Source of the DNA: Diacronema lutheri
Lineage: Eukaryota; Haptophyta; Pavlovophyceae; Pavlovales; Pavlovaceae
Assembly: GCA_019448385.1 (NCBI GenBank)
Contig: JAGTXO010000014.1
Coordinates: 186,001 to 250,000, forward strand
Reading direction: 5' to 3'
DNA: 64,000 nt
Of the stretch, positions 1 through 64,000 are shown in pieces. Position 1 is the first letter of the stretch; each line of letters begins with the position of its first letter. Position numbers and translations under genes: made by a program. Below the pieces are notes generated by a model. That model was given only the letters and a program-made list of their open reading frames with translations. It was not told the DNA's origin and ran no database searches.

Positions 1-747
1 CACGACGCGCACGCCGGACGAGAGGGCCATCTTGAACGGGCCGCGCTTGAACGGGAGCAGCGCGCCGTTGGGTGTCGTCGTGCCCTCGGGAAACGCAAGG
101 ATCGACTCGCCGCTCTTGAGCAGCTTCACCGCGTCAATGAAGACGCGCGCCTCGGAGCGGCGGTCGCCGCGCGTGACGCACAGGTCGCGCGCGAGCGCGA
201 GCTTCGCGCCGATGACGGGCAGCTTTTTCACCTCCGACTTGGAAATGTACTTGAGCGGGCGACGCAGCAGGCCGGTCACCGGCACGTCCAGGTAGCTGCA
301 ATGGTTGGCCACGTACATGATCGCCTCGGACGCGGGCGGCAGCAGGTGCGCACCGACGACCGTCGCCTGGATGCCGGTGCAGCGCAGCACGGTGCGGCCC
401 CAAAAGTTGCCGATGCGGGAGACGAGGATGCGGCGCGCGTCGACGAGCGATGCGAGCCACATTGGGAGGAGCAGCACCGCGCCGAAGAGGAAGGCGTTCA
501 GCCCAAAGAGCAGCCCGAACGCGTTCAGCTTGCTCGAGCCGATCCGCTCGATGCCGCGCGCCGGCCGCGGGCTCGGCGCCGCCGCGGCCGCGCTGAGCGC
601 CACGCGAGAGACCAACGCGGGCGCAAGCGTTCGCCGCAGCCCGCACGCGCGAGGCACAACTGCCGCGCCGCTCGCGCGAGCGACAACCGCCGCGCCGCTC
701 GCACGAGCGACGATCGCTGCGCCGAGGAGGAGCGCCAACCCGCGCAT
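1..747 (-). CDS. 1-acyl-sn-glycerol-3-phosphate acyltransferase (PlsC/LPAAT family), 3' end cut off
   Basis: The frame opens at an ATG (complement of 745-747) and runs off the left edge of the window, giving 249 residues without a stop. About residue 148 it carries NHCSYLD, matching the NHxxxxD acyl-transfer motif, and about residue 217 it carries FPEGT, the glycerol-3-phosphate-binding motif; these two define the PlsC family that converts lysophosphatidate to phosphatidate. A hydrophobic stretch (FGLLFGLNAFLFGAVLLLP) precedes the catalytic part. The N-terminus begins MRGLALLLGAA, Ala/Arg-rich and almost free of acidic residues, and contains a repeated ASGAAVV block; this would suit a signal plus plastid transit peptide, which is an inference. 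It is divergent from the gene at 843 with 95 nt between start codons. The C-terminus is not visible. Confidence 0.85.
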   Translation of the reverse strand, partial: MRGLALLLGAAIVARASGAAVVARASGAAVVPRACGLRRTLAPALVSRVALSAAAAAPSPRPARGIERIGSSKLNAFGLLFGLNAFLFGAVLLLPMWLASLVDARRILVSRIGNFWGRTVLRCTGIQATVVGAHLLPPASEAIMYVANHCSYLDVPVTGLLRRPLKYISKSEVKKLPVIGAKLALARDLCVTRGDRRSEARVFIDAVKLLKSGESILAFPEGTTTPNGALLPFKRGPFKMALSSGVRVV

Positions 748-842
748 TTGATTCCCCCCCAAACCGGAAGCCCCCTTGGCACTGATTTTATTTGGAATAA
801 TAATTTTTAGTATTTTTATGTTTTTTTTTGATTTTTATACCC
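748..842. promoter_or_regulatory. AT-rich spacer between divergent genes
   Basis: Between the two divergent start codons the sequence changes abruptly to A/T, especially 782-840 with runs of T and AATAATAATTT-like stretches, in an otherwise GC-rich window. This is the only non-coding DNA available as promoter for both flanking genes, so a shared bidirectional promoter is inferred. No canonical TATA box can be assigned with certainty. Confidence 0.45.
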
Positions 843-2303
843 ATGGCCGGTGAGATGTCTACGCCCGGCGTGGTCCACGTGCCGTGTGGCGCGAGGCTGG
901 TCGCGATCCAGGTGGACCCGAGCAAGCTGCTCCGCTCGCGCGAGGGTTACAACAATTTGTGCAGCCACTGCGACGGCACCATCTCCGTCGGCGACGCCAT
1001 CTGGCCGATACCGCCTGAGGGCAAGGGCAAACGCCGGTGGGTGCACCTGCGCTGCGCCGCGGACCTGCTCGGCGAGCCGCTCGTGCCGCCGCCGTGTAAG
1101 CATTATTCGCGCTCGGGCTACTGCTTGTTCCACGACGCGTGTTTCTTCTCCCACCCGCCTGAGGTCCCGCCCGCCGACGGCCTCGCACCCTTCTCCGAGG
1201 CGAAGGCGCGCGAGGACGGCCGGCTGCGGCGCGAGGCGCGCGCCAAGGCGGCGTCGGGCGCCGGCACCGCGCAGCCGAGCGCGCGCACGGGCTGCAAGGC
1301 GCGCAATCGCGTGAAGAACAGGCATCGCGCGAGCACGATCCGCAGATTCCTCGTCGAGACCTACGGCTATGATCGCCTCGCGTCGGGCTCGGGCGTCCTC
1401 GAGATTGCAGGCGGGAAGGGCGAGATCTCGTTCCAGCTCGTCAAGGTGAACGGCGTGGCCGCGACCAACGTGGACCCGCGGCCGGGAAACCTGTCGAGGT
1501 TCCGGCGTGCTTGGGCGCACGGCTTCTACACGCGCAACCGCATGTGCGCGCCGATGGACGCGCGCGCGACGACGGCCGCCGCCGTGCCGGTCGAGAGCGA
1601 GCCGCGGCTGATCCGCGCCTTTTTCGAGATGGACAACCTCACGCGCGCCAGAGGACGGAGAGGCGGCGCGCGCGACGATCCGGACGACGCTCAGCTTGAC
1701 GCGCAGCCACGTGCCGTGCCGCGCTTTGCCCTCAGCCACGACGCGTGGACGGCGCAGCTCGAGCGAGCACAGGCTGTGCGCTGGACCAACAAGGGCCTCG
1801 AGCTGATCGGCACGCGGGTGCCGGCGCACGCGGGCGCGGGCGCGCTCCCGCCCGGGTGCGCCGAGTGCGGCGCGTGCGGCTGTTGCACTGCCGAGCACGG
1901 CGTGGATGGCGCGTGCGAGGCGGATGACGACGACGACGACGGCGACGACGACGGCGACGACGACGGCGCCGTCGACCGGCCTCAGCGCGTACGCACGCTC
2001 GAGGAGGCCGAGGCGATCCTCGACAGCGTGAGCTTTGTCGTCTCAATGCACGGCGACGCGGCGATCGACCACGCGCTCGAGTTTGCGCTGAGCAAGGGCG
2101 TGCCCTTCGCGCTCGTGCCGTGCTGCGTGTACCGCGAGTTGAGCCCGTGGCGAGCAAACGTGCACAGCTACGAGCACCTGCTCGAGCACCTCGAGAGGCG
2201 CGCTCAGAGCGCGGGCGTGGCGGTCGCGCGCGCAACGCTCAATTTTGGCGGCAAGAACCAGGCCATATACTCGCCTCCAGCGCGCGGGGGGGGTGGGTTG
2301 TGA
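843..2303 (+). CDS. CCCH zinc-finger protein with methyltransferase-like domain
   Basis: This is a 486-residue protein starting at CCATGG. Near the N-terminus C40-x2-C43 with H68-x2-C71 resembles a treble-clef zinc site. A CCCH finger follows with C85-x8-C94-x5-C100-x3-H104. After a basic, Ala-rich spacer, residues about 183-213 (GVLEIAGGKGEISFQLV, then NVDPRPGN) look like the nucleotide-binding loop and acidic strand end of a class I SAM methyltransferase. Further on SFVVSMHGDAAIDHAL and VPCCVYRE resemble the later strands of the Methyltransf_32/TRM13-type fold. A poly-Asp/Gly linker (DDDDDGDDDGDDDG) lies between the halves. A role in RNA, perhaps tRNA, methylation is inferred from this combination; the true substrate is unknown and the family match is weak. 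Confidence 0.7.
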   Translation: MAGEMSTPGVVHVPCGARLVAIQVDPSKLLRSREGYNNLCSHCDGTISVGDAIWPIPPEGKGKRRWVHLRCAADLLGEPLVPPPCKHYSRSGYCLFHDACFFSHPPEVPPADGLAPFSEAKAREDGRLRREARAKAASGAGTAQPSARTGCKARNRVKNRHRASTIRRFLVETYGYDRLASGSGVLEIAGGKGEISFQLVKVNGVAATNVDPRPGNLSRFRRAWAHGFYTRNRMCAPMDARATTAAAVPVESEPRLIRAFFEMDNLTRARGRRGGARDDPDDAQLDAQPRAVPRFALSHDAWTAQLERAQAVRWTNKGLELIGTRVPAHAGAGALPPGCAECGACGCCTAEHGVDGACEADDDDDDGDDDGDDDGAVDRPQRVRTLEEAEAILDSVSFVVSMHGDAAIDHALEFALSKGVPFALVPCCVYRELSPWRANVHSYEHLLEHLERRAQSAGVAVARATLNFGGKNQAIYSPPARGGGGL

Positions 2304-4193: not shown

Positions 4194-4222
4194 CACGCCT
4201 CTTCTGAGAGGTTCCTCACAGG

Positions 4223-17218: not shown

Positions 17219-17261
17219 TCTTGGTGGGCAGAGGACGGCCGATCTGCTTTGACGAAACCAG

Positions 17262-18551
17262 ATGGCGGCGCCTCCTCGCCTGCAGGGCCTGCCTGCCTCG
17301 AACACGAAAAGGGCGGCAAAAAAAATGTTCTCCACGCGTGCAGCCGACACGCGCCAGCGCTCCACGTCGCTCCTCGCCGCGCTCCTCCTTGTTCAAGCGT
17401 TCGGCGCGACGCCAATCGCACCGCCGCAGCGCTTTGTCCTCTTCTCGCGCGTTTTCGAGGACGGCCCATACTCAGCGTTCTTCGTCGACTACCATCTCGC
17501 GCTGGGCTTTGACACGATCATCCTGCTCGACGCGCGTCGGGGCGGCCAACCGCGTGTCAGCTTTGCGCAACCACACCGCGTGCACGTCCACCGCGTTCGC
17601 AACGCTGGCAATGATCTTCTCGCAGAGCATTTTGCGCTCGTCGTCGCGTCGCGCGCCGAATGGGTCTTCGTCGCCGACAGCGACGAGTTCTTGCTCGTCG
17701 ATGAGCCGACGATCGGCGCATACGTGGACCGCGTCGAACGCGCGCACGGCCCTATCGACGTCTTTTCCTTCCGCTGGGCGATGATCGATTACTTTGCGCC
17801 GCGCTGCGCGCACGAGGTCGATTTTGTGCGATTCGTGCGCGCCGAGTGCTGCACGCCGCACTTTTTGCACAAGCAGCTCTCGCGCGTGGCCAAAGTCAGG
17901 GGTCTCACGCCGCACTGCGCGAGCTGGCGCGACCCGTCCATGCCGCTGCGCGTCTTTCATGACGGCGTCGCACTTACCGCTGCGCGCCCAAACGCGCTCT
18001 GCCGCACGGTAAATGCGGCGAACAGCACCACGCCGCCGCGATATGCCACGTCGGTGGTGCACGTGCACACTCGTTCAATCACCGACCTGCTGATCAAGGC
18101 GCTGCGCACCACCCTCAGCAGAAAGCGCCTGCGAAATCCGCACCGCCTCGTCGAGCTGATGCGAGCTGCGCCCGTCGTACCGCGCGACGAGCTGCTCGGC
18201 GCGTTCCTTGCGGCGGTCGGCAACAAGGCGGCGCTCCCACTCGCAAACATGGCGACTATTCCACGCCGCTTTGACGCGCAGCACGGCGCCGGCGTGGCCG
18301 CGCACCTCGTGCGCCAGCGCCTCGCACGTCTGCTGCCTCACGCACCCACCATTGCTACGCGGCGCGGCATCTGCACGCAGCACCTCGAACGACACGCCGT
18401 CCGCGCGCTGCTTGCCGAACTTACCAACGCGACGGTCAGCGTGCCTGAGTACAACCGCTTCGCCGCGGCGGTCGCCGCCGCGTACATCCGAGAGCGTCAA
18501 GTGTACGAGCGCAACCGCGCGCGGCACGTGCTGCGGGTCAAAGCCATGTAA
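17262..18551 (+). CDS. Glycosyltransferase family 2/92-like protein
   Basis: This is 429 residues. An N-terminal hydrophobic stretch (STSLLAALLLVQAFGA) suggests a signal peptide or type II membrane anchor, so a Golgi/ER lumenal enzyme is inferred. RFVLFSRVFEDGPYSAFFVDYHLALGFDTIILLD looks like the first Rossmann strands of a GT-A fold (quoted in part: FVDYHLALGFDTIILLD), and WVFVADSDEFLLV supplies the DxD-like metal-binding motif seen in GT92/GT2-type enzymes. The middle contains many Cys and His. A second ATG at 17324 is an alternative start that would leave the hydrophobic stretch nearer the N-terminus. The sugar donor and acceptor cannot be deduced. Confidence 0.7.
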   Translation: MAAPPRLQGLPASNTKRAAKKMFSTRAADTRQRSTSLLAALLLVQAFGATPIAPPQRFVLFSRVFEDGPYSAFFVDYHLALGFDTIILLDARRGGQPRVSFAQPHRVHVHRVRNAGNDLLAEHFALVVASRAEWVFVADSDEFLLVDEPTIGAYVDRVERAHGPIDVFSFRWAMIDYFAPRCAHEVDFVRFVRAECCTPHFLHKQLSRVAKVRGLTPHCASWRDPSMPLRVFHDGVALTAARPNALCRTVNAANSTTPPRYATSVVHVHTRSITDLLIKALRTTLSRKRLRNPHRLVELMRAAPVVPRDELLGAFLAAVGNKAALPLANMATIPRRFDAQHGAGVAAHLVRQRLARLLPHAPTIATRRGICTQHLERHAVRALLAELTNATVSVPEYNRFAAAVAAAYIRERQVYERNRARHVLRVKAM

Positions 18552-25268: not shown

Positions 25269-25314
25269 CGCGCGAAACGTACGTCCGTTATAAGCTGGTC
25301 TTGGCGGTTTGTCG

Positions 25315-31618: not shown

Positions 31619-31678
31619 GAGTGCGAAGTAGGATACGCGTTTCCTATTCCTATTAACCCTTTCTGTTTAAGGTCAATC

Positions 31679-33782: not shown

Positions 33783-33879
33783 GCGAGGAGTGCCGGAGCA
33801 CTTCTGGTACAGTAGTCCGGGGTGCCGCGATCGCCATTGCTCTCTCGTCGGTCGCGGACGACCTGAGCCGGCCCGCCGA

Positions 33880-36800
33880 ATGCCGCTCAGGCTCGACATC
33901 AAGGTGGACGCGCGCCGCGCGCCGCGGGGCTGCCCGGCGTCAGCGTGCGGCTCGTCGTCCGCTCCTTGTCAGCGGCTCGCCGCCGGGCCCACGCACTCAC
34001 CCGTGCCATGCCGCGCGCGCGCGACGCCGCGCCCTGCAGCGCAAGCTCTCGGCGCGGTCCGACCGAGTAAAGAGCGTCGATGTGCACCCGGTCGAGCCGT
34101 GGGTGCTCTCGGCGTTGTACAATGGCCATCTGTTCCTCTGGAACTATAACACGCAGGTGCGCACGAGCTTGCACGCGCGAGCGCGCGCATCGCATTCGGG
34201 CGGCGCTGCCAACGGGCGTATGGCCATTGCCGCGCGCGTGCAGCCAGGTGCGAGCCCGCGCTGAGGCAGAGGACCTTCGTCTGCGCCGCCGCGGCGCGCG
34301 TGCGTGTCGTGCGCGCCGTGCGTGCCGTGCAGACCCTCGTCAAGTCCTTCGAGGTGACCGACCTCCCCGGTACACGCGCGCGCTCGCCCGGCGCGCCTGG
34401 CGCACACACACCCGCGCGCGCGCGCGAGGGAGGGGGGGGGGGGGGTGGGGGGGGAGGAGGGGGAGGCGCACGCGCTGACGCCGCGCGCGCACGCCTGTGT
34501 GTGGCTGCGACGCGCCGACGCCGCGCAGTGCGCTGCGCCAAGTTCATCGCGCGCAAGCAGTGGGTGATCGCGGGCTCGGACGACAACAACTTGCGCGTGT
34601 ACAACTACAACACGATGGAGAAGGTGAAGGTGTGGGAGGCGCACTCGGACTACATCCGGTGCATCGCCGTGCACCCGACGCAGCCGCTCGTCGTCTCGTC
34701 CTCCGACGACATGTCCATCAAGCTGTGGGACTGGGAGAAGAGCTGGCAGAACACGATGACCTACGAGGGCCACTCTCATTATGTGATGATGGTCTGCTTC
34801 AACCCAAAGGACGCGAACACGTTCGCGTCGGCGTCGCTTGACAAGACGATCAAGGTGTGGGGGCTGCACAACCCGTCGCCGCACTTCACGCTCGAGGGTC
34901 ACGAGAAGGGCGTGAACTGCATCGACTACTTCTCCGGCGGCGACAGGCCGTACCTCGTCTCGGGCGCGGACGACAAGGCGGTCAAGGTGTGGGACTACCA
35001 GACGAAGCAGTGCGTGCAGACGATGGAGGGGCACCAGCACAACGTCGCGACGATCTGCTGCCATCCCGAGCTGCCGCTCATCCTCACTGGCGGCGAAGAC
35101 GGCACAGTCCGGCTCTGGCACTCCGGCACGTACCGGATGGAGGGGACCCTGTCCTACGCCTTTGAGCGGTGCTGGTCGATCTGCGCGCTCAAGGGCACGC
35201 ACCGCGTCGCAATCGGGTACGACGAGGGCACGATCATGGTGAAGCTGGGGCGGGAGGACCCGATCTCATCCATGGACCCGACGGGCAAGATCACGTGGGC
35301 CAAGCACAACGAGATCCAGCAGGCGAACCTCAAGGCGGTCACGGAGGACGTGCCCGACGGCGAGCGGCTGCCGCTCGCGACCAAGGAGCTCGACGTGTGC
35401 GAGATCTACCCGCAGTCGCTGCAGCACAACCGGAAGGGGCAGCTCGCCGTCGTGTGCGGCGACGGCGAGTACATCGTCTACACCGCGCTCGCGTGGCGCA
35501 AAAAGTCCTTTGGGCAGGCGCTCGACTTCGTGTGGGGGATGGATACGGCCGAGTACGCCGTGCGCGAGTCGCTCAACTCGGTGAAGGTCTTCAAGCAGTT
35601 CAAGGAGACGCACGCGTTCCGCCCGCCGATGCTCGTCGAGGCGATCTTTGGCGGGGCGCTTCTCGGCGTGCGCAACCAGGACGTGCTCATGCTCTACGAC
35701 TGGGCCGAGTGCCGCCTCGTCCGACGGATCGACGTGTGCCCGCGCGAGGTCTACTGGAACGAGGCGGGTGACCTGGTCGCGCTCGCGTGCGAGGAGAGCT
35801 TCTACGTGCTGCGGTACAACAAGGAGGTGGCGCACGCGGTCTTTGACGGCGGCGAGCCCGTGCCCGAGGAGGGCATCGAGATCGCTTTTGAACTGCTGTA
35901 CGAGGTCCATGACACCGTGCGGACGGCCGTGTGGGTGGGCGACTGCTTCATCTACACGAACGGCGTCGAGGACATGCCGTCGAGCAGACTCAATTACACG
36001 GTGGGCGGGCAGGTGGTGACGCTGCAGCACCTAGACGCGCCTCTCTACCTCGTCGGGTACATGCCGCGCGAGAACAAGCTCTACCTGCTCGACAAGAACT
36101 ACAACGTCGTCGCGTACACGCTCCTCCTCTCGTTGCTCGAATACCAGACGGCCGTCGTGCGGCGCGACTTCGCCGCGGCGGCCGCCGTGCTGCCGAGCAT
36201 TCCGGCGGAGCAGCATAACCGGATCGCGCGCTTCCTCGAGGCGCAGGGCTTCCCACTCGAGGCGCTCGAGGTGGCGACAGACCCCGAGCACCGCTTCGAG
36301 CTCGCCGTGCAGCTTGGCAAGCTGGATGTGACGCACGAGATCTGCAAGACCGCCGAGTCGGACGCAAAGTGGCGGCAACTCGCAGACATGGCTCTCAAGG
36401 CGAGCGTGCTGCCCCTCGCCGAGGAGGCGATGACTAACGCGGGTGACTATGCCGGGCTGCTCATGCTGCACACATCGTCGGGCGATAGCGGCAAGGTGGA
36501 CGAGCTCGCGATCGCCGCGGAGGTGCGCGCGCCGGCGGCCGCCCGCGCCGCGCCGAGCCGCGCCGCGCCGCGCCGCGCCGCGTCGCGCGCTCGCGCCCCA
36601 CGGCCCCGCCGCGCTTCTCGACGTGCGCGATCTCGGCGTGCAGGCGGCTGGGCGCGGCAACATCGCCTTCCTCTGCCTCTTCCTGCGCGGCAAGGTGGGC
36701 GAGTGCATCGAGCTGCTCCTGCGCACCAGGCGCACGCCCGAGGCCGCCTTCTTCGCGCGCACGTACGCGCCGTCGCAGATGGCGCGCGTCGTCGAGCTGT

Positions 36801-38170: not shown

Positions 38171-38275
38171 GCGACAGGCGCCTCCGCACCAGCGGCCGCT
38201 GCTGTCGCCCCCCACCCAGCCCGGGACTCGTAGCTCCGCCCGGCTCGAGCGGTGATCTCTCAAGCTTGAGCCAAA

Positions 38276-40563
38276 ATGGTGACGGCTACGGCTCGGCGCA
38301 AGAGGTGGTCACAGCCGCTGCTCGACGCGGCGGCCGCGCCCGCGGCGGGCGTGCCGGCACCGCTCGCGGCGAGCTCGTTCGCGCTCGACCTCGCCGCCTT
38401 CCAGGCTACCCACCTCGCCGCGGCGGTCGCTTTTCGCCAGGCGCTCTTTGAGTGCGCGGAGCTGTCCGACGGCGGGGCGGACGCGCCGGCGCACTGGCTC
38501 AAGTGCGACTTTTGCCCGCGCACGTTCGCGACGCGCCGTGGCCTCAAGCGGCACCGCTACAACTGCCGGCTGCACTTCCTCGAGCGCGGCGGCGAGGACG
38601 TTGAGGAGGACGAGGAGGACGCGGCGGCCGCCGCTGCGGACAGTGCGACCATGTGGGTGCCGTGCGACCTGTGCAACAAGCGCTGCCGGACCAAGCGCGG
38701 ATACACGCGACATCGCCTGGTGTGCAGCGTCAAGCACGAGGCGGGCACCGCCGCACACGAGCCGTCCAATGGCGCCGCGCTGCTTCTCGCCGCCGAGGCG
38801 GGCGGCAGTTTCTCGTGCGACCTGTGTGCACGCGCCTTCACGACCGAGCGCGGCCTCAAGCGGCACCGGCACGCGTGCGCGCAGCAGCTGCAACAGCAGC
38901 AGCAGCAGCAGTACCCGTACCGCGCGTCGGGGCACATCGCGCACGGCATCATCGTCGACGCGACGCTCGAGCCGGCCGGCACGAGCGGCACGCTTGTCAA
39001 CGCGAGCGTGGTTGGTGCGGACGGCGCGGCGGCCAGCGGCCACACGCAGCCGCGCCACGCGGTGCTCGACGCCGTCGTCGTCTCAGTCGAGGCCGCGAAC
39101 CCGACGTCGGCCGTCGTCGCGGGCCACGTGGTGGGGCACGTGATGGGCGTGGGCATGGTCGTCGACGAGGCCGACGACGACACGCGGCATGGCCCGCGCG
39201 GTGCGCACGCCGGCGCGGCGCGCGCTGGCGGAGGCGCGGATGAGCAGATCGACGCGTGGTGCCGGCGGCAGATCTTCGACATGATGGCGCGGGGCGAAAT
39301 GACGCTGCGCGATGTCGCGCTTGCTTCGGGTATTGTGCCGAGCATGGGCAAGGCGGGTGATGTCCATCTGAATGACTTCCTGCATGTATGGGCGCGCCCC
39401 GCGCCCGCGCGTCGCGCGCACCGCGCGTCGCGCGCCGCGCCGCCGTTGATGCACAGCGCTCTCTGTCGCGGGAGCCGCGTCGCGCGCCAGCCAAGCCGGC
39501 CATTCATACGCGCGCGCACGCGCGCGCCCCCTTCCGGGGCCTTCGCTTTGCCCAGGGAAAACACGTGGGCGGCAAGCAGGCGCAGGAAGTGCGCGGCATG
39601 CTGCTGCGCTGGTTCGAAGAGCGCGATTCGACCGAGGATGAGGCGGACGTACCCGGCGCAAGCGCCACGCCGAGCCGGCCGCGCGCGCACTTCGCGCAGC
39701 CCCCGCTGCAGCCTCACGGACCGAATGGCGTGCACATGGCGCCCGCCGCCGTCCTCGCCGCACAGCCGCACGCGTTCGGTGTCGGAGCGGGCGGGCCAAA
39801 CGCGCCGGTCCTCGCCATGCCGTGGCGCCCCAGCCCTGGCGTCGCTGGCCCGACAGTGGCAACGGCCGTCACTGTTGGCTGCTCGAGCGCAGGCTCGGGT
39901 GGCGCCGGCTCACCCAACCCGTCCGTCGTCGTCGGCGTGCCCGTCGCAATTGGAGGCGAGGGCGGTGGCGCCGGCGGTGGCAATCAGGCCGAGCAGCGCC
40001 GCCGATTGTGGTCGACTGACGAGGACAACCGACTGCGTGAGCTCGTCGCGCTGCACGGGCAGGAGGCGTGGCCACAGATCGCACAGCACTTTTCGGAGCG
40101 ACTGCCCCGCCAGTGCCGGATGCGCTACGTCAACTACCTCGCGCCCGGCATCTCGCACGACGAGTACTCGCCCGAGGAGGACGCGCGCCTCCTCGCCGCC
40201 GTCGCGCAGATGGGCGAAGGGCACTGGGCGCGCCTTGCCGCGCAACTGCCCGGCCGCAGGCCAGACTCGGTGCGCAACCGGTGGCGTCTCCTCTCGGGCA
40301 CATGTCGCAGCACGGACGGCGTCGATGCGGCCGAACAGCACCAGGCGGGCGCGCCGCTCGTCGTCGAGGCGCAGCGTGCGCACGTTGGCGCGGGTGGGCA
40401 CAACGTGCAGGGTGCTGTGCGCGTGGAGGCTGTGCAGCCTCTTGCCGTCGCCGACGCAATCGCGCCCGCGCACGCGCACGCAATCGGTGTCGGGCATCTC
40501 GGCGGGCCCGCGCTGCCGTCTGCGCATGCACGCACAGTCGCGCCACCTTCGACTGCGCAGTGA
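38276..40563 (+). CDS. Zinc-finger plus R2R3-MYB fusion protein
   Basis: Exons 38276-39385 and 39556-40563 give 705 residues. Three fingers of the same type (CDFCPRTFATRRGLKRHRYNC, shown in part as CDFCPRTFATRRGLKRH; CDLCNKRCRTKRGYTRH; CDLCARAFTTERGLKRH) each end in His then Cys, so they are C2HC rather than C2H2. A poly-Gln run follows. The second exon carries two MYB repeats, LWSTDEDNRLRELVALHG with QCRMRYVNYL, and EYSPEEDARLLAAVAQMG with SVRNRWRLL, the R2R3 arrangement. Both parts bind DNA, so a transcription factor is inferred. The exon junction reads FLH-GKHVGGKQAQEV. The intron begins GTATGG, one of the exceptions to GTGCG here. The C-terminal 100 residues are Ala/His-rich and probably disordered. 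Confidence 0.78.
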
Positions 40564-43359: not shown

Positions 43360-43421
43360 CTGATGGAGCACGATGGCGGTCGTCGCGGTCTGACGTGAGC
43401 ACGTTCTCGCATCTCGTTGGG

Positions 43422-46145: not shown

Positions 46146-48740
46146 ATGCCGCAGGGCCCAGCGCTGCTCGCGGCGCTGGTGGGTGTGGCAGTGGCAAACG
46201 AGCGATACATTGTGCACTTCCCGCCCGTCGCGCCCGGCGTCGCGCGCGCCGAGTCGGCTGGGCACGCCGCCGCGCGCGCGCTCGCAACCGCGCCCAAGGG
46301 CGCGCGGCTGCGCGTGTCGCGCACGTACGGCCAGCTGCTTCACGGCTTCTCGGGCGAGCTCGACAGCGAGTCGGTGCGGCACTTTGAGTCAATCGGCGCA
46401 GTGGTCATTCCAGACGGCCCCGTGCGCAAGCACGGCTACGCGACGGCCGACGACGAGCGTGTAAGCGGCGGCGCAGCGCTGGGCGCGCTGACCGGCCAGG
46501 CGGCGACGACGAGGTGGAACCTCGACCGGCTCGACCAGCCAGCGCTGCCGCTGGACGGGCAGTACGTCGCGCCGTACGACGGCGCTGGCGTCCACATCTT
46601 CATGATCGACTCGGGCGTCAACCTGTTGCACGACGAGTTCGTCGGCCGTGTCTCCACGGGCTACGATTTTCTCGAAAGCCACGAGCGACCGTTAGACTGC
46701 GACGGGCACGGCTCGCATACGGCGGGCGTCGCGCTGGGCACAACGTACGGCGTGGCGAGGAAGGCGACGCTCCACCCGCTCCGCGTCCTCGATTGCGATG
46801 GCCTCGGCTCATTCTCGGATGTGATCAGCGCACTCGAGTGGGTAAGTGGGTACGGCACTGACGGCCCGAAGGTCGCGTCGCTCTCGCTGGGCGGCGCGTT
46901 CAACACCGCGCTCAACGCGGCGGTGGATGCGCTGCGCGCGCGCGGCGTTGTCGTCGTCGCGTCCTCGGGCAACGCCGGCGCCGACGCGTGCGCCTTCTCG
47001 CCGTCGAGCGCGGCGGGCGCGTTTGCAGTTGGGATGACAGACGCTGCGGACGTGGCGGCCGCGAACTCCAACGCGGGCGCGTGCGTGCGGATCCTTGCGC
47101 CGGGCGTCGGCGTGCGCTCGGCGCACATTGGCGTCGCGTCCGCGTCGCGCGTGCTGACGGGCACGAGCATGGCCGCGCCGCATGCGGCGGGTGTGTTCGC
47201 ACAGCTCCTCGGCTACCACCACGCGCTCGGCGGCACGCTCTCGCCAGCGGCGGCGGCGGCGCGCGTCGCGCAGCTCGGCGTCGCCGGCAACGTGAGCGAC
47301 TCGCCGGCGGCGCCCGGACGCAACATACCAAACTTGCTCCTCCAGGCGTTCGTTCGCGCCGAGCCGCAGCCACCGCCGAGCCCGCCCCGCCCGCCGGCGC
47401 CGCCACCCTCCCCGCCAGCGCCGCCGGGTCCGCCGAGCCCGCCGCCCGCGCCGCTGCTGCTCGTGCGCGTCGTGCCCGACCTGTTCCCACAGGAGTCGTC
47501 GTGGAAGCTGCTTGCACGCGCCGACGAATCGACGCTCTGGGCGCAGGTCGCCGCCGAGCAGCTCGCGCCCGGTGACACAGGGCGTGATTGGACGGTTACG
47601 GTGCAGGACGGCCGTTACCGTTGGGTCCTTTTCGACGCGTTCGGCGACGGCATCTGCTGCGCTCATGGCGCGGGCTCGTACTCGCTCGCGCTCGACGGCG
47701 AGCTGATGGCTGCCGGCACGCTCGACGGCGGCACGCTCGTTGCAGTCAACTTTGACGTGGGCAACATTTCCTACGCACCGTCGCCGCCCGCACCGCCGCC
47801 CGCGCCGCCGAGCCCGCCCGCGGTCGCGCTCGGCGACGCGCCGGGCGTGCTCTTCGTCGCGCTGCTCCCGGACGCCGTGCCCGAGGACATCTCGTGGACG
47901 CTGCACGCGCTCAAGACGGGCGCGCCGCCCACGCTCGTCGCGCGCGCGTCGCTCGGCCCGACATCCACGGCGCTGCAGACCTGGGAGCGTACGCTCGCGC
48001 CGGCGACACTTTACCGCTTCGAAGTGGCGGATGCGTCGGCGAACGGGCTTTGCTGCGCGTACGGCCAGGGCTCGCTCGTGCTGCGCTGGCGCGGCGCGCT
48101 CTTCTGGAGCGCGGCGGCCTTTGGGCGTGGCGCCGCCGTGGAGTTCACGCCCGCCGACCTCTTCACGCCCGCGCCGCCCCCGCCGCTCGCGCCGCCGGCG
48201 GCGGCGACCTCGTCGGCCTCGTCGGCGCACAGCCCGCCGGCCGCGCGCCGGCCGAGCGCGGCGACGAACACGTCGACCGACTCGCAGCCGCCATCGCTCC
48301 TTGCACGCCTCGAGCGCGACACGCTTGCGATTGCGTTTGGAGGCATGGGCTTGCTCACCCTTGTCTCGGTCGCCATTGTGCTCTACACGCTCTCGCGTCG
48401 GCCGCGCGCGCCGGCGGCCGCGCGCGCCGAGCGCGGCGCGGTCGACGGCGAGGAGGGCGAGCGCGAGTCTGGCCGCGGCGTGCCGCTTGAGGAGCGCGAC
48501 ACGCGCGCGAGGGGCAGCGTCAGCGTGTTTCCGTTGCCGTGGGGCGCGGCGCGAGCGATGTCGGCGCAGCCGCCGCGCGGCGCTGCGCGCACAGGATCGC
48601 GCGCGCCGGCGAGCGCATCCGCGCGCACCTCCAGCGGCAAGCCCGCGGCCGTGTCCGGGCCGAGTTTCCGTGAGATCGTGATTGCGCACCATGCGGGCGG
48701 TGAATCGAGCCGCAGCGCCCGGGCGCCAGCGCGCCGGTGA
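46146..48740 (+). CDS. Membrane-anchored subtilisin-like protease with proline-rich linkers (paralogue A)
   Basis: This is an intronless gene of 864 residues. A signal peptide (MPQGPALLAALVGVAVA) precedes an inhibitor-like propeptide and a proteinase K-type S8 domain with Asp155 (MIDSGVN), His188 (DCDGHGSHTAG), oxyanion Asn (ASSGNAGADAC) and Ser341 (GTSMAAPHAAG). Two proline-rich linkers (PPSPPRPPAPPPSPP, then PSPPAPPPAPPSPP) each precede a module of about 90 residues with a W-x-L strand and a GDGICCAHG or NGLCCAYG motif. A C-terminal TM helix (IAFGGMGLLTLVSVAIVLYTL) and a basic cytosolic tail follow. A cell-surface or secretory-pathway protease is inferred. The catalytic triad is complete. 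It is followed by paralogue B 184 nt downstream. Confidence 0.9.
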   Translation: MPQGPALLAALVGVAVANERYIVHFPPVAPGVARAESAGHAAARALATAPKGARLRVSRTYGQLLHGFSGELDSESVRHFESIGAVVIPDGPVRKHGYATADDERVSGGAALGALTGQAATTRWNLDRLDQPALPLDGQYVAPYDGAGVHIFMIDSGVNLLHDEFVGRVSTGYDFLESHERPLDCDGHGSHTAGVALGTTYGVARKATLHPLRVLDCDGLGSFSDVISALEWVSGYGTDGPKVASLSLGGAFNTALNAAVDALRARGVVVVASSGNAGADACAFSPSSAAGAFAVGMTDAADVAAANSNAGACVRILAPGVGVRSAHIGVASASRVLTGTSMAAPHAAGVFAQLLGYHHALGGTLSPAAAAARVAQLGVAGNVSDSPAAPGRNIPNLLLQAFVRAEPQPPPSPPRPPAPPPSPPAPPGPPSPPPAPLLLVRVVPDLFPQESSWKLLARADESTLWAQVAAEQLAPGDTGRDWTVTVQDGRYRWVLFDAFGDGICCAHGAGSYSLALDGELMAAGTLDGGTLVAVNFDVGNISYAPSPPAPPPAPPSPPAVALGDAPGVLFVALLPDAVPEDISWTLHALKTGAPPTLVARASLGPTSTALQTWERTLAPATLYRFEVADASANGLCCAYGQGSLVLRWRGALFWSAAAFGRGAAVEFTPADLFTPAPPPPLAPPAAATSSASSAHSPPAARRPSAATNTSTDSQPPSLLARLERDTLAIAFGGMGLLTLVSVAIVLYTLSRRPRAPAAARAERGAVDGEEGERESGRGVPLEERDTRARGSVSVFPLPWGAARAMSAQPPRGAARTGSRAPASASARTSSGKPAAVSGPSFREIVIAHHAGGESSRSARAPARR

Positions 48741-48924
48741 GGGCGAGGGGCGGCGCGTTGGCCGCCAGCGCGCCCGTGGCCGCTGCGCCGGCGCCGCCGT
48801 CGCCCAATGGCATGGCGATCTGCGTCGACTGCTGGCATGGACGCTTCAGCAGTACTATAAGACAGGAACTAGTACCCATGGGTGAAAACTGAAAGAAAAC
48901 GCCCGCCCCCCCCAAAAGCAAACG

Positions 48925-51900
48925 ATGGGGCGGCTGGGCGTCCTGGGCGTACGAGTAGCCCTCCTCCCCCTCCTCGCGGTCTGGCTCGATCCGGTGGAGA
49001 CGGCCGACTCCGGACGCGACGGCCGAGTGCGATACATTGTGCAGTTTGATCCTGCGCGCGTGACCGCGGCAGGCGTCGAGAGCTCGCTCGGCCGCGCACC
49101 CGCGGGCACCGTCGTCCGCCGCCGTTTCGCGCGGCTCCTGTCGGGCTTCTCGGCTGAGCTCGACGAGGCGGGGCGCGCCTATTATGAGAGCCTTGGCGCG
49201 CGTGTCGGGCCCGTCTTTCGTGTTCAAGCCGCCGCTGTGCCGAGCTGGGGCCTGGATCGCGTCGACCAGCGCTCGCTCCCGCTCGACGGCGCGCCGTACG
49301 CTCCCGCGCTGCGCGGCGACGGCGTCTCCATCTTCGTGCTCGACACGGGTGTCAACCTCGCGCATTTGGAGTTCAGCGGGCGTATTGCGGACGGGTACGA
49401 CTTTGTGAGCGATGACACTGTGCCCAACGACTGCAACGGCCACGGCACGCACGCTGCAGCGACTGCGCTCGGCGCGACGTTTGGCGTCGCGCCAGGCGCG
49501 CGGCTCCATGCGCTGCGCGTCCTCGACTGCGCGGGCAACGGCGCGAGCGACGACGTGCTTGCCGCGCTCGAGTACGTGGCAAACCACAAGGCGACGCTCA
49601 AGGTCGCCAGCCTCTCCCTCGGCGGCGCCGGCCGCGACCGTCTTCTCGAGGAGGCGGTCGAGCGTGTAGTCGCGCTCGGCACAACGGTCGTTGTCGCGTC
49701 GGGCAACGAAGGCCGAGATGCGTGCGCGTACACGCCCGCCGCGACGCCGAGCGCGATCACGGTGGGTGCGACGACGTCGACCGATTTTGGCGCCGACTTC
49801 TCCAACGCCGGCGCATGCGTTGATATTCTCGCTCCCGGCGCGGCGATCCGATCGGCATGGATCGGCGGGAGCTCACGTAGCGCGACTCTCTCGGGGACGA
49901 GCAGTGCGCGCGCTCGCGCGCGGCGCGGCGCGGCGCGCAGCGTGGCGCGGCACGTAACATGGCACCGCGCGCGCTCCGCACGCGCGCTCACCCACGCCCT
50001 TCTCCTTCTCGCCGCACGCATGCGTGCGCGCGCGCGCGCGCGCCCGCGCCCGCGCCGCTGCCGCTGCAGTGGCGACGCCGCACGTCTCGGGGATGGCGGC
50101 CCAACAGCTGCAGAGGCTGGGGGCGGGCGCGACGCCCGCGGACGTGTGGGCTGCGATCCGCGCGCGTGCGCTCGAGGGCGCGCTCACGGACTCGGCGGCG
50201 AACCCGGGCCGCACAGTACCCAACCGCCTCCTTGTCCTCGGCACCGCGCACGCCCCGGTCGTCCCGCCGCCGCCTCCGCCCGCGGGCGCTCGCGGCGCAG
50301 CGCGAGAGCTCACGGTGCGCATCCGGCCGGACCGCTATCCGGAGGATGTGACCTGGGATCTGTTCCGCGAGGACGCGAACGGGCTTGGCTGGACGCGCGT
50401 GCGCGGCGGTAGGCTCAACGACGGCGCGGCTGAGACGAGCTGGCGGAGCGACGTGGCGCCTGGGCGCTTCTTGTTCGCCATTGCTGATTACTTCAGCGAT
50501 GGGCTCGGCTGCTGCACGGACGCGTGCCCGTCGATCGCGCCGCAATGTGGCGAGTTCGAGCTGCTTGTCGACGGTGAGCGTGTCGCGTACGGTGACGGGA
50601 CAAGTTACGCGCTTCTCGCCTTTCGGCCGTTCACCGTCGCGGGTTGGCCGCCGCCCGCGATGCCGCCACCGGCACCCGACCCGCCTCGCCTGCCGCCGCC
50701 GCGGCCGCCGCCTACGCCGCCTTCCGCGCCACCGCCGTCGCCATTGCCGCCTGAGCCGCTCAGCCCGCCGCCGTCCGCACCGCCGCGACGCCCTTGGCCA
50801 CCGCCACCCACGCCAACACCGCGGCCACCGCCGCCGCGCTCGCCGCCAAGCCCGCCGCCAAGCCCGCCGCCACCCTCGCCGCCAAGCCCGCCGCCACCCT
50901 CGCCGCCAAGCCCGCCGCCATCCTCGCCGCCAAGCCCGCCGCCACCCTCGCCGCCAAGCCCGCCGCCACCCTCGCCGCCAAGCCCGCCGCCACCCTCGCC
51001 GCCAAGCCCGCCGCCACCCTCGCCGCCAAGCCCGCCGCCACCCTCGCCGCCAAGCCCGCCGCCACCCTCGCCGCCAAGTCCGCCGCCACCCGCGCCATCG
51101 CCCTCGCGGCCGCCGAGCCCACCGCCACTGCCACCGTCATCGCGCATGCCACCGTCCACGCGGCCGCCGCAACCACCGCCGCCGCGCTCGCCGCCTGCAC
51201 CGCCGCCGCCCCGGTCGCCTGGGCCGCCCGCAGCGCGCGCGCCGCGCGCCTTCTTCGCTGTGGACGTGCAGGCGGCGCTGGCCGATTTTGAATACGGCGC
51301 GGCGCGCGCGCAGCTCGTCTCCGGCCTTGCCGCGCTCCTCGGCGTGGCGCAGGCCGACGTGCGCGTCGAAGCACTCATGGCGGCGTCGGTACGCATTGTC
51401 TATTCGGTGCGGGCTCGCGCCGGCTTCGGCGGCAGTGGAACAGATGCGGAGGCGGTGGGCGCACTGCGCGCAGTGTTGCTCAACGTCACCGTCGAGCAGC
51501 TCACAGCAGCGGCGGGCGTGCCTGTGAGTGCAGCTGCACAGATCGTGCCATCGGGCTGTGCGCTCGCCTCGGCTCCCAATTTCGACTCGGGCGCAGCCTA
51601 CGACGACGGGTCGTGCGCTCCGCCCGCGCCCGCGCCGACGCACGCGCCCGAGACGAGCGATGCGATGGCCGCACACGGCGCGGTCAGCTCTGGCGGCGAG
51701 GCTGCACGCGACGACGCCACGCGAAACAGCTCGGACGCAGGCGAGGGCGGCCCAAGCCTCGCCGACGGCGCGGGCGCGCGCATGGGCGGCCTTACAATCT
51801 TTGCGCTCGTCTGCGCAGCGCTCGCAATCGCGCTCGTCGCCGGCGTCTGCGTCGCCGCGCGTGTGCGCTCGCGGCGAAAGCGCGCGCGCCAACAAGACGG

Positions 51901-52486
51901 GCGCTCGACGGTGATCTTCGTATCGCACGCGCGCGCGTTCGGTGCGCGCGCGCAGGGCGCGAGCAACGCCGCGGCGGACGGCGGCGCGCCGACGGACTGC
52001 GCCGCGGGCGCGCTGCAAGGCGCCAGGCCATTCGCTACTCATGCGGCGGCGCCCATTGCCATGCCGGCCGCGTCGGCTGACGTGCGGCTGGGCGGCGCGC
52101 CGCAGCTGCCCGTGTCGACATCGCCGTCACCCGACGCGTTACAAGGCGCGCGACCCCACGCGCCAGGCGTGCGCGTGGCTGCCGCCCCTGACGCGTCTGC
52201 GCTGCCCGGCGCCGCCGCGCGCGCTCGACGCGCGGCGCGATTGCGCGCGCTGGAGGCACCTTCGCCGCCGCTGCCCGCGCGTGCAGCCCTGGCAGCAGCG
52301 AGCGAGCCCAATGCCGCGCTGAGTTGGCATGAGGGCACGCCAGCACTACGTGAGAACGAGCGAAGTGCTGCGGCACGCGCGGGCAGCTTTGGTGCGGGCA
52401 TGAGCGCGGCGGAACGCAGGCGGCTGCGAAGGGAAGCGTGCGCTGCGGCTGCGGCTGAAAAGCGAATTGCCAGCAGCGGCGAGTGA
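48925..52486 (+). CDS. Membrane-anchored subtilisin-like protease with SPPPP stalk (paralogue B)
   Basis: Exons 48925-49903 and 50070-52486 give 1,131 residues. The layout mirrors paralogue A: signal peptide, propeptide, S8 domain with Asp140 (VLDTGVN), His173 (NGHGTHAAA), Asn (ASGNEGRDAC) and Ser326. The intron cuts the codon just after the catalytic Ser, restoring GTS-MATPHVSGMAA on splicing. One module with DGLGCCTDAC follows, then about 150 residues of hydroxyproline-rich-type repeats (SPPSPPPP) like those of algal cell-wall glycoproteins. An extra globular region (FFAVDVQAALADFEY) and a TM helix (LTIFALVCAALAIALVAGVCV) complete it. Proline-rich stalks of this kind are O-glycosylated in green algae; that is only inferred here. 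Confidence 0.88.
50841..51090 (+). repeat. 24-bp tandem repeat encoding SPPSPPPP
   Basis: About nine to ten copies of a 24-bp unit (GCCGCCAAGCCCGCCGCCACCCTC and near variants, described here by its encoded SPPSPPPP) lie in exon 2 of subtilisin B. One copy has a substitution giving SSPP. The near identity at the DNA level indicates recent unit expansion; the copy number is likely to vary. Confidence 0.9.
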
Positions 52487-52790
52487 TCCTTTTTAAAAGA
52501 GGGGGGCAGGCCCCGAGGGGGCCGATTGCTGATTTCGGCGAAGTCTTTAGTCCAGCGCGTGGTTGTGCAGGCGTGTGCAACGCGTGGTTGTGCAGGCGTG
52601 GTTGTGCAGGCCTGCCGGCGCAGGCCGCCGCCGTGCTGCGCGACCGGCAGGAACAGCCGGCGGCAGGCGTGAGCATCCGTGGACACCGAGACGCCAAGGG
52701 CGACGGTGGCGGCCCGAAGGACGGCAGCGTCGAAGGTCGCCGCCGCGCCGGCCGCGTCGGAAGGGTAGGAGTGGGCGGTGAAGTACGTGA
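52487..52790. other. Non-coding stretch with short repeats
   Basis: No gene is supported. It starts with CCTTTTTAAAAGAGGGG just after the subtilisin stop, includes the GGTTGTGCAGG repeat listed separately, and shows no conserved protein in any frame. It may be the outer part of the degenerate transposon that follows. Confidence 0.4.
52557..52610. repeat. Three copies of GCGTGGTTGTGCAGG
   Basis: Exact 15-bp copies start at 52557, 52582 and 52596, the last two overlapping by one base. They lie just outside the hAT-like fragment and could be subterminal repeats of a transposon, which is an inference. Confidence 0.75.
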
Positions 52791-53222
52791 GGCGGTGCTG
52801 GAACGAGCACGGTCTCTTATACCCATAAGAACGGTCTCACCAGTTTTTTTGGTGCCAGTGTGCCAGAGCTTCGGGCGCCTGGCGGCGCCCATCCAGTATA
52901 CTGCGAGGCAGCTGTCGGGATCAAGGAGCACCTCGAGTCTCGCTTCCAAGAGTTTGGCCTCACTAACTCGGACATCGCGTCTATCGCGACCGACTCGGGC
53001 GCGAACGTGCGCCAGTGCTGCATCGACCTCGCCAAGGAGAAGGGCATCGATTGGGTGCCGTGCATCAACCATGGCCTGCACAACTCCTCAAGGTATGCCT
53101 TTGGCCTCGTCGACGAGGACATCGAGGTCAATGAGGAGGAGGACCCCATCTTCGACAATGGGTGCGACGAGTTCCAGCTTGATGAGGAGCCGGACGAGGA
53201 GGGAGCACCGGCGAGCGCGTGA
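52791..53222 (+). mobile_element. hAT-type transposase fragment
   Basis: An open frame bounded by stops encodes about 143 residues. DIASIATDSGANVRQCCIDL and DWVPCINHGLHNSSRYAFG match the core of hAT/ZBED transposases, where a catalytic Asp (TDSGAN) is followed by a WxPCxxHxLN segment. The frame lacks an ATG at a sensible place, lacks the BED finger and the C-terminal dimerisation part, and ends in an acidic stretch. It is therefore a degraded or partial element, or one exon of a domesticated gene. Target-site duplications and terminal inverted repeats could not be identified. Confidence 0.7.
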
Positions 53223-53317
53223 GCAGCTTGAGGGCGCAGGTTGCCTGCGCGGACGCGCGCGCAGCCCGGCGCACCGCGCCCACTCCCGGACTCTGGCCGG
53301 ACTGCTGCACGGTCTCT

Positions 53318-53425
53318 TGTACGGACTCGACCCGTGTACGGTACGGACTCGCGCCACGACAGCCGCTGTACGGACTCGGCTGTACGGACAGCCGGCGCCA
53401 GGGGGCTGTGTACTGTACGGACTCG
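53318..53425. repeat. TGTACGGACTCG short repeat cluster
   Basis: TGTACGGACTCG occurs at 53318, 53367 and 53414, with a one-base variant at 53340 and a truncated copy at 53381. Such clustering is typical of transposon subterminal regions; no coding function is seen. Confidence 0.75.
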
Positions 53426-53464
53426 AAAAGTGTAGCCACAGGAGGGTTTGCCAATCTTGCTCAA

Positions 53465-53525
53465 CCAAGATTGAGTGGCCAATCTTGGCTGGCCGGACGG
53501 AACACGCATCCAAGATTGAGTGGCC
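53465..53525. repeat. CCAAGATTGAGTGGCC direct copies with inverted partner
   Basis: Exact 16-bp copies at 53465-53480 and 53510-53525 flank GGCCAATCTTGG (53478-53489), which is partly their reverse complement. Foldback structures are therefore possible. This lies between the hAT piece and the SDR remnant. Confidence 0.75.
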
Positions 53526-53589
53526 GCCCGACTCTCGCTCGAACGACCAGCACGCCTCGGCTCCGGCCGAGACGGCGCCGCTCAAGATC

Positions 53590-54098
53590 CCTTCGACCTC
53601 TCCATTCGCCACGCTGCTGGTCCTCGCGTACAGTGTGGGCGCGTTCGCTCTCTGGTCCTTCTTCGCGTCGATCATCCTCGCGTGCAAGGCCGCGCCCACA
53701 CTGTACGCGTGCAGATACCGCTGGCCCTTCTCCGGCGACATCCCGCCCACACTGTACGCGTGCAAGGCCGCGCTCTGCCTGCTGCAGCGCCAGCTTCGCC
53801 CGGCATCGGCGCTCAGATCGCGCGAGAGCTCGCGTGCCGCGGCTTCGACCTGATCCTCGTCGCGCGCCGCGGCGACAGGCTCGCGGCGCTGCAGCAGGAG
53901 CTGCAGGCCTTGTCGCTCGTCCACGCCAAGCGCAAGGCGGACGTGCGCATGTTCCCGTACGACCTCTCCAAGCCCGACGACGTGGCGTCTCTCTGCTCTG
54001 AGCTCGCCAGCCTGCCCGTCGCCATCCTCGTCGGCGTGACGCGCGCGCTGCGCGCGCGCGGCCGGCGCTGGCGGACGCTGTCGCGCGACCCGACCTGA
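53590..54098 (+). pseudogene. Broken short-chain dehydrogenase/reductase (3-oxoacyl-CoA reductase-like)
   Basis: A hydrophobic stretch (PFATLLVLAYSVGAFALWSF) resembles the N-terminal anchor of ER-bound SDRs. From 53793 another frame gives ASPGIGAQIARELACRGFDL and LILVARRGDRLAALQQEL, matching the nucleotide-binding start of 17-beta-HSD12/KAR-type enzymes, then FPYDLSKPDDVASLC. The expected VTGA residues before the glycine motif, the NNAG, the catalytic Ser-Tyr-Lys and the whole second half are absent; the frame stops at 54098. Short duplicated repeats sit between the two pieces. It is either a pseudogene disrupted by repeats or a misassembled region. Confidence 0.6.
53628..53764. repeat. 16-bp inverted repeat plus duplicated ACACTGTACGCGTGCA
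   Basis: GTACAGTGTGGGCGCG (53628-53643) and its exact reverse complement (53691-53706) are separated by 47 nt. GCCCACACTGTACGCGTGCA recurs as direct copies at 53693-53712 and 53745-53764. The repeats fall inside the disrupted SDR gene, so a small insertion or local duplication is inferred. Confidence 0.75.
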
Positions 54099-55817: not shown

Positions 55818-55954
55818 GCTGCCCGGAAACACCGCGCCGGCTCCTTGTGAGTGCCAGCGCCCGGCGCCCTGGTCCTCACTGGTGTAAGAGAGGGCACACC
55901 GCCCACCTCGCCAACCAACGCGGTTTCAAACTTGGTCGGCCGGGGATTGCAATC

Positions 55955-56332
55955 ATGGCCCTGCTCGCCCCTGGACGTGCGATCCTCGCGCTCGCGCTCG
56001 CGCTCGTGCTGCTCTGCCACGCGCACGCCCTGGTCCTGCCGGCCTCCGGCCGCACGGCGTTTGCACCCGTCCGATTGGCCATCGCGCCGCGTGCGGCGCC
56101 GTCGATGACCGTGCTGAACATCAACGGGAAGAAGATTGACGTGCCTGCCGGCAGCAACCTGGGCAAGGCGTGCGAGAAGGGCGGGCTCAAGCCCAAGTAC
56201 AGCTGCAAGAAGGGCGAGTGCGGCAGCTGCACGGTGACGGTCGGTGGGACGCGCATGAAGGCGTGCGTCGAGAAGGTGCCACCCCCGCCCAAGCTCAAGT
56301 CCCTGCTCGAGAACGGGCTGGTCGTGCGCTAG
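55955..56332 (+). CDS. Plastid-type [2Fe-2S] ferredoxin-like protein with short cluster loop
   Basis: This is 125 residues. MALLAPGRAILALALALVLL followed by CHAHALVLPASGRTAFAPVR looks like a signal peptide plus a transit peptide beginning near a Phe, the pattern used for secondary red plastids. The mature domain (from about residue 51) has C84-x4-C89-x2-C92-x11-C104 (YSCKKGECGSCTVTVGG, then MKACVEKVP). Photosynthetic ferredoxins have about 29 residues before the last Cys, so this is a short-loop relative and not the main photosystem I acceptor. A role in plastid electron transfer is inferred. The protein is complete, with a stop at 56332. Confidence 0.83.
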   Translation: MALLAPGRAILALALALVLLCHAHALVLPASGRTAFAPVRLAIAPRAAPSMTVLNINGKKIDVPAGSNLGKACEKGGLKPKYSCKKGECGSCTVTVGGTRMKACVEKVPPPPKLKSLLENGLVVR

Positions 56333-60627: not shown

Positions 60628-60667
60628 CCGAACGCGTCCGGCCGCGAACGCGCCGTAGCGGGCGCTT

Positions 60668-63496: not shown

Positions 63497-63553
63497 CCCG
63501 ACAGACGAGGCGGAAGGGCGCGGGTGCGTTTTAAAATGTTTTTAAAAACAAAA
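63497..63553. promoter_or_regulatory. AT-rich gap between divergent start codons
   Basis: The 57-nt gap contains GTTTTAAAATGTTTTTAAAA and further A/T up to the right-hand ATG, in a GC-rich setting. It is the only sequence available as a shared promoter for both genes. TTTTAAAA may serve as a TATA-like element; that is an inference. Confidence 0.5.
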
Positions 63554-64000
63554 ATGATGGGGAGAGAGGCGCTTGTACTCGAGATTGCCGACCTCCTGGC
63601 CGCGCAGCCGGATGGCGCGCGCGCCGCGCTCTGCGAGGACGCGTTGCACCTTGCTGCGCAGCCGGCCGAAGCGCGCGCGGCGCTATGCGCGGCGCGGCTC
63701 TCGGCGTCCTTTGGGCTGGGCGAGGCGACAATTGAGTCGGTGCTCGCAGAGCTCTCGATGGCCGCCAAGTACGAGCTGACGTTCGGCGAGTACGAGCTGA
63801 CGCATGTGCGCCAGCTGCTCGCGCTTGGCGAGCGCGGTTGCGTCGACCATCTCGCTGAGCTGGGCGTGACGCCCAACGACCGTGACCGGCTCGCCGCGCA
63901 CGTCTTTTGCGCCGACCGCCCCAACGTCACGTGCGGCGGCGCCTTCTCGCCCTCGTGGCTGCGCGTCGCGCGCGGCCTCTACTCGCAACATATGGGGTGC
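63554..64000 (+). CDS. Unknown helical protein, 3' end cut off
   Basis: From the ATG at 63554 (another ATG follows at once) the frame stays open to the window edge, giving 149 residues. It begins MMGREALVLEIADLLAAQPD and is mostly alpha-helical, with a short internal duplication KYELTFGEYELTH. Cys are scattered (ALCEDAL, ALCAAR, VFCADR, VTCGG) without a recognisable metal site. No family is recognised. It is divergent from the J-domain gene with an AT-rich gap. The C-terminus lies outside the window. Confidence 0.6.
   Translation, partial: MMGREALVLEIADLLAAQPDGARAALCEDALHLAAQPAEARAALCAARLSASFGLGEATIESVLAELSMAAKYELTFGEYELTHVRQLLALGERGCVDHLAELGVTPNDRDRLAAHVFCADRPNVTCGGAFSPSWLRVARGLYSQHMGC

Follow-up and report, generated by a model that had tools for sequence, protein, structure and literature searches.

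Head-to-head gene pairs with very short gaps between start codons in a contig of the haptophyte Diacronema lutheri

We analyzed a stretch of 64,000 nucleotides from Diacronema lutheri (GenBank assembly GCA_019448385.1, contig JAGTXO010000014.1, positions 186,001 to 250,000), which we call the window. The initial annotation had listed ten head-to-head gene pairs in it, with just 29 to 137 nt between their start codons. ATGs are present at all ten places, on the expected strands, and the gaps are exactly as listed. A gene-finding HMM that was trained without this list reproduced every one of the ten divergent pairs and kept the annotated start for 17 of the 20 genes. The other three starts were moved downstream (17262 to 17325, 31679 to 31703, and 63554 to 63557); with the HMM's starts, the ten gaps range from 29 to 137 nt, with a median of 89.5 nt. 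The observation of tightly spaced head-to-head pairs is therefore confirmed, with small corrections to the starts. The window contains no tRNA (as identified by ARAGORN) and no match to Rfam at the gathering score.

The first gap (748..842; 95 nt, 33% GC) separates an acyltransferase-family gene, which starts at 747 on the minus strand, from a plus-strand gene without a Pfam match over the cut-off (start at 843). The shortest gap, 29 nt (4194..4222), lies between a short minus-strand gene that also lacks such a match (start at 4193) and a plus-strand gene for a UBR-box/PRT6-like E3 ligase (start at 4223). Malate dehydrogenase (minus strand, start at 17218) and a glycosyltransferase-family gene (plus strand) are 43 nt apart (17219..17261), or 106 nt with the HMM's start at 17325. 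At 25269..25314, 46 nt separate a minus-strand gene with no Pfam match (start at 25268), which has more in-frame ATGs upstream, from a multi-domain Ion_trans channel gene on the plus strand (start at 25315). The gap between a PAP2-family gene (minus strand, start at 31618) and a RING-finger gene (plus strand) is 60 nt (31619..31678), or 84 nt with the HMM's start at 31703. A phosphotriesterase-like/VATC gene (minus strand, start at 33782) is 97 nt (33783..33879) from the gene for coatomer beta' (plus strand, start at 33880). The ATG annotated for RPC11 (minus strand, 38170) is 105 nt (38171..38275) from a gene model with C2H2 and MYB domains (plus strand, start at 38276). An ABC1-kinase gene model (minus strand, start at 43359) and a SAP-domain gene (plus strand, start at 43422) are separated by 62 nt (43360..43421). 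The longest gap, 137 nt (55818..55954), lies between a Rad52-family gene (minus strand, start at 55817) and a 2Fe-2S ferredoxin-like gene (plus strand, start at 55955). Finally, a kinase/RING gene model (minus strand, start at 63496) is 57 nt (63497..63553), or 60 nt with the HMM's start at 63557, from a plus-strand gene that leaves the window and has no Pfam match over the cut-off in the part that was searched.

Most of these starts are predictions; homologs were checked for malate dehydrogenase, coatomer beta' (beta'-COP), its phosphotriesterase-like partner, and RPC11. Residue 6 of malate dehydrogenase aligns with residue 5 of its relatives in PDB, which places the N terminus within one residue. 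In beta'-COP, Met1 aligns with Met1 of a PDB relative, and the first exon is just 24 nt long, so the 89-amino-acid open reading frame that is visible at 33880 runs into an intron. For the gene on the other side of this gap, alignment to a phosphotriesterase relative begins at residue 8. These two alignments give the 97-nt gap the strongest support of the ten. In RPC11, the residue opposite residue 3 of PDB chains is residue 26. The true start is therefore probably the methionine at codon 25 (38098), which is 24 codons downstream, and this gap would be about 177 nt instead of 105 nt. The initial list of gaps thus holds as distances between ATGs, but it needs this probable correction and perhaps the HMM's three. 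For four of the 20 starts, there are also additional in-frame ATGs upstream that fall within the partner gene.

Sixteen of the 20 paired genes match a Pfam family over its curated cut-off (for the beta'-COP, ABC1, and kinase/RING models, the match is in an exon that the HMM joined to the start). Every one of the ten pairs has at least one matched partner, and six have two. Judging from the family names, the partners in these six pairs look unrelated, and the mixing of functions within pairs that was initially described is real. One of the examples given for it, RPC11 with a MYB factor, should be qualified: the MYB repeats are in the second exon of the partner's gene model, and the first exon contains C2H2 fingers.

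To see beyond the window, we relied on the same HMM, which is small and was trained on the window plus its two 100-kb flanks (264 kb in total). It forbids overlapping genes. Of its 160 introns, 141 end with CAG and 49% begin with GTGCG, a context shared by just 9% of GT sites overall, which suggests that the splice sites it recognizes are real. It predicted 106 genes and hence 105 pairs of neighbors, all on one contig; according to this gene finder, intergenic DNA makes up just 6.8% of the 264 kb. The genome of D. lutheri NIVA-4/92 is reported to comprise 43,502,671 bp in 103 contigs, the longest of 3.042 Mb, with 14,446 genes, 61.2% coding sequence, and 45% single-exon genes; the results and methods of that paper, which also describes strand-specific RNA-seq, do not discuss gene orientation (PMC8379373). 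Our sample is 264 kb of these 43.5 Mb.

Within the window, 20 of the 27 predicted genes that touch it belong to the ten pairs; about half would be expected if strands were random. Taking head-to-head pairs to be adjacent genes with facing 5' ends, there are 37 in the 264 kb, including all ten in the window, and the distance between start codons (as distinct from transcription starts) is under 1,000 bp in all 37. The other neighbors comprise 37 convergent and 31 tandem pairs. Random strands predict about 26 divergent, 26 convergent, and 52 tandem pairs (chi-square P = 1.5e-4). In other words, the strand switches between 74 of 105 neighbors (70.5%; P = 1.6e-5). The excess is present in the window (19/26, P = 0.0145) and in the two flanks, considered together (55/79, P = 0.00032) or separately (left, 31/43, P = 0.0027; right, 24/36, P = 0.033). 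The head-to-head pattern is not peculiar to the ten annotated pairs: it is also present in the surrounding 200 kb.

Across seven settings of the HMM, 66 to 70.5% of neighbors switched strands. When we ran the HMM on 20 synthetic contigs, in which gene order and orientation were randomized, it called switches for 52.6% of neighbors (true value, 52.1%), with a maximum of 63.2%, as compared to 70.5% in the actual sequence; this control is blind to genes that were already fused in the original calls. However, around MYB genes, we saw no excess of switches in eight 3.1-kb loci: just 4 of 11 neighbors switched (3 divergent, 1 convergent, and 7 tandem, from calls scoring above 15), which differs from the 264 kb (P = 0.038). 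These loci, seven of which are on other contigs, were picked for their MYB domains, and they form a small sample with gene fragments at the ends. Still, they warn against extending strand alternation to all genes.

The lengths of the gaps also depend on orientation. Across the 105 pairs, the median gap was 101 bp for divergent, 88 bp for convergent, and 179 bp for tandem neighbors. Divergent gaps were shorter than tandem gaps (P = 0.0008) and as short as convergent gaps (P = 0.87); 29 of the 37 were 137 nt or less. In an additive model, tandem gaps combine a promoter side with a terminator side, and convergent gaps are made up of two terminator sides. If the two promoter sides of a divergent gap were independent, its length should be 2 x 179 - 88 = 270 bp, as compared to the 101 bp observed. 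Bootstrapping the difference (observed minus additive) gave 95% intervals of -397 to -49 with medians, -319 to -24 with means, and -325 to -85 with trimmed means. If errors in start codons are equal across the classes, they cancel, so this comparison is not affected by them. The shortfall is our best evidence for overlap of two promoters, and it lends indirect support to putative bidirectional promoters. The gaps are also AT-richer (63% GC) than coding DNA (72.5%) or introns (78%).

We did not identify a convincing promoter signal in the divergent gaps. By k-mer enrichment, ACGATGGC stands out: 6 of the 37 divergent gaps contain one complete copy each, as compared to 0.11 expected from shuffling; it is in one tandem gap and no convergent gap. 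We take this sequence to resemble the YY1/TISU element (an ATGGCGG-type site). The genome has 26 matches to the C2H2 fingers of YY1, of which the best five are 46 to 51% identical; these are at most candidate orthologs. As a shared promoter element, ACGATGGC is a doubtful candidate that we did not adopt: it is common in coding DNA (54 occurrences in the 264 kb), it resembles a start codon, and a motif search by EM missed it. That search used the first 200 nt of 36 of the 37 divergent gaps (one gap of under 15 nt was dropped) and found no motif above background: the best log-likelihood ratio (LLR) was 46.3, as compared to 40.5 to 54.6 in eight simulations. The best EM motif in these gaps differs from ACGATGGC. 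In the other gaps, AT-rich motifs did beat all eight simulations (tandem, 62.2 versus at most 48.2; convergent, 56.7 versus at most 45.7).

Two genome-wide patterns were also set aside. First, ACGATGGCSG is in excess (3,715 occurrences on both strands versus 137 for the reversed pattern), but we discounted this since codon usage can inflate it. Second, we counted arrangements that would correspond to close divergent starts encoding Met-Ala, with each palindromic match counted once. GCCAT-N32..62-ATGGC occurs 3,266 times, as compared to 2,388 for ATGGC-N32..62-GCCAT; at a spacing of N400..430, the counts are 2,329 and 2,212. The direction of the excess fits close divergent starts, but we draw no conclusion, as a few repeats and a minisatellite account for many of the first matches listed.

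Overall, our data from a single contig (264 kb) establish four features: head-to-head pairs, the lengths of their gaps, strand switching in excess of chance, and divergent spacing below what two separate promoters would need. We think it likely that, in a strongly compacted genome, each head-to-head pair of ordinary protein-coding genes shares a very short two-way promoter region. The DNA between paired start codons would be a single nucleosome-free region, with open chromatin shared by both genes, from which RNA polymerase II would start in both directions, and both mRNAs would carry very short leaders. The partners would not have to be related or coexpressed. Initiation complexes occupy about 70 to 80 bp each, so where the gap is around 60 nt or less, two of them would hardly fit abreast: they would have to alternate, or one would overlie the partner's coding region and start there. 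The initial annotation had deduced that the shortest gaps seem to require very short leaders or overlapping transcripts. This deduction is sound, and we consider either outcome plausible.

The alternative that fares best is that, in the tightest pairs, transcription of one gene or of both begins inside the partner's coding sequence, which would yield head-to-head overlapping transcripts. We view this as possible but on the doubtful side, and for the shortest pairs it could be compatible with a shared promoter. Eleven of the 37 divergent pairs are separated by no more than 62 nt, which leaves scant space for two initiation complexes. There are precedents as well: microsporidia are reported to have very short 5' untranslated regions and overlapping transcripts (PMC3629993), and Plasmodiophora is reported to have overlapping untranslated regions (PMC4815078). 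On the other hand, promoters inside the partner's coding sequence might be expected to lower GC3 in the first codons of short-gap genes, and we saw no such dip, but this is a weak test. A more speculative proposal, to which we give somewhat less credence still, is that the basic promoter unit of this haptophyte is a module that spans less than about 100 bp and is two-way by nature. The genome would have drifted, or been selected, to strand alternation, with most genes sharing a module with an unrelated neighbor. At the shortest gaps, the two polymerase complexes would be mutually exclusive or would initiate within the coding sequence of the partner, and paired genes would then compete instead of cooperating.

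It is also conceivable, but quite improbable, that there is nothing here besides compaction: intergenic DNA would be short everywhere, strands would be random, and no shared promoter would be required. The small intergenic fraction, convergent gaps that are as short as divergent ones, and the lack of excess switching at the MYB loci all fit this explanation. It does not account for the switches between 74 of 105 neighbors, which were replicated in flanks that the initial annotation had not covered, or for divergent gaps that are shorter than tandem gaps and far below the additive expectation. Least probable of all is that misplaced start codons, or untranslated first exons elsewhere, hide much larger distances between transcription starts: the start of RPC11 is probably wrong, three HMM starts disagree with the annotated ones, four starts have in-frame ATGs upstream, and the first exon of beta'-COP shows that tiny 5' exons occur, but the N termini of malate dehydrogenase and beta'-COP match those of PDB relatives at residue 1 or within one residue, the phosphotriesterase-like protein can be aligned from residue 8, a conserved ATG fixes the coding start, and uniform errors would cancel in the additive comparison.

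If shared two-way promoters extend across the genome, then D. lutheri would be a very tight case in a photosynthetic, nonparasitic eukaryote. It would offer a natural test of the minimum spacing of opposed core promoters and of competition between neighbors. The gaps of 30 to 140 bp would be candidate two-way promoters for engineering this oil-producing alga, and for many genes, it would be impossible to change the promoter without affecting the neighbor.

Our literature searches turned up nothing on point about bidirectional promoters or start sites in haptophytes or about alternating gene orientation in compact protists, and nothing on point about the untranslated regions of Pavlova among the matches listed; a paper on Auxenochlorella deals with promoters located within genes (PMC12636532) and was set aside. 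In other groups, there are several comparable systems. In the yeast Saccharomyces cerevisiae, 1,504 head-to-head, 2,856 tandem, and 1,574 tail-to-tail pairs were tallied, with 626 overlapping pairs excluded (PMC3303733). As in our sample, head-to-head neighbors in yeast are transcribed outward from a common intergenic region, but orientation in yeast is near random, unlike the 74 of 105 switches here, and just 9.8% of the head-to-head coding distances in yeast are reported as 0 to 200 bp, as compared to 32 of 37 here. Nannochloropsis oceanica, like D. lutheri, is a compact alga with short intergenic regions between divergent genes, and its bidirectional promoters, which were selected for coexpression, can drive two transgenes (PMC5785352). 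Two-way activity was demonstrated there, whereas ours are putative promoters and the partners look unrelated. In microsporidia and Plasmodiophora, as here, intergenic regions are too short for separate regulatory regions to fit easily; however, those are intracellular parasites with transcript evidence, whereas D. lutheri is photosynthetic and is grown in seawater medium, and any overlap of its transcripts is hypothetical.

The closest parallel is the brown alga Ectocarpus, in which 61.7% of genes flanking intergenic regions adjacent to transcription start sites are reported to be in divergent pairs; close divergent pairs have a common nucleosome-depleted region, and the expression of the partners is uncorrelated (PMC7784034). 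Two of its characteristic features, an excess of opposite-strand neighbors and divergent gaps that are shorter than tandem gaps, are found in our 264 kb of one contig (70.5% switches; medians of 101 and 179 bp). The corresponding medians in Ectocarpus are 409 and 2,293 bp, while ours were measured from ATG to ATG and from stop to ATG; also, nucleosome depletion and uncorrelated expression were measured in Ectocarpus, whereas for D. lutheri a shared open region is predicted. The arrangement is thus of a known kind, as in Ectocarpus but tighter, and it is this tightness, in a photosynthetic alga, that stands out.

Across the 264 kb that comprise the window and its flanks, predicted introns were the GC-richest class of sequence (78% GC) and intergenic DNA was the GC-poorest (63%). 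Predicted introns began with GTGCG 49% of the time, as compared to 9% of GT sites. The intron predicted after the first coding exon of the beta'-COP gene runs GTGGAC...CTGCAG; this exon, which lies together with that intron at 33880-34039 of the window, is predicted to be 24 nt and to encode MPLRLDIK. Protein homology supports the predicted exon from Met1 onward.

One predicted protein on the minus strand of the window (32514-33782) has a phosphotriesterase-family domain and, at its C-terminus, a VATC (Vms1-associating treble clef) domain, which is, to our knowledge, an unusual combination. A plus-strand model (38276-40563) joins C2H2 fingers in exon 1 to MYB repeats in exon 2, and it could represent either a single fusion gene or two separate genes in tandem. 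Downstream of a subtilase-family gene (46146-48740, plus strand) lies an 8-exon model in the same orientation, and together they span 46146-54098. By eye, the two N-termini resemble each other. The 8-exon model may be wrong because the long open reading frame within it (50093-52486) has no match in Pfam.

At eight loci around MYB genes, 7 of 11 neighbors were in tandem, in contrast to the 264 kb of window and flanks. It may be that genes for transcription factors avoid sharing a promoter with a neighbor.

Pattern counts across the assembly were dominated by a minisatellite of GCCATGGCTGCC-like units at 41877-42208 of contig C1 and by other repeats copied over contigs C1-C4. The assembly we analyzed has as many contigs as the published one and falls 9,875 bases short of its length.

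Among the ten head-to-head gaps in the window, 748-842 is the most AT-rich (33% GC), with long T runs. When we ranked 8-mers by their enrichment in the divergent gaps of the window and flanks, ACGATGGC came first: it is present in 6 of 37 divergent gaps (0.11 expected from shuffling), one tandem gap, and no convergent gaps. One copy is at 43370-43377 of the window, and the others in divergent gaps are in the flanks. This 8-mer resembles a YY1/TISU site, but it may instead be sequence that is start-codon-like or codon-driven.
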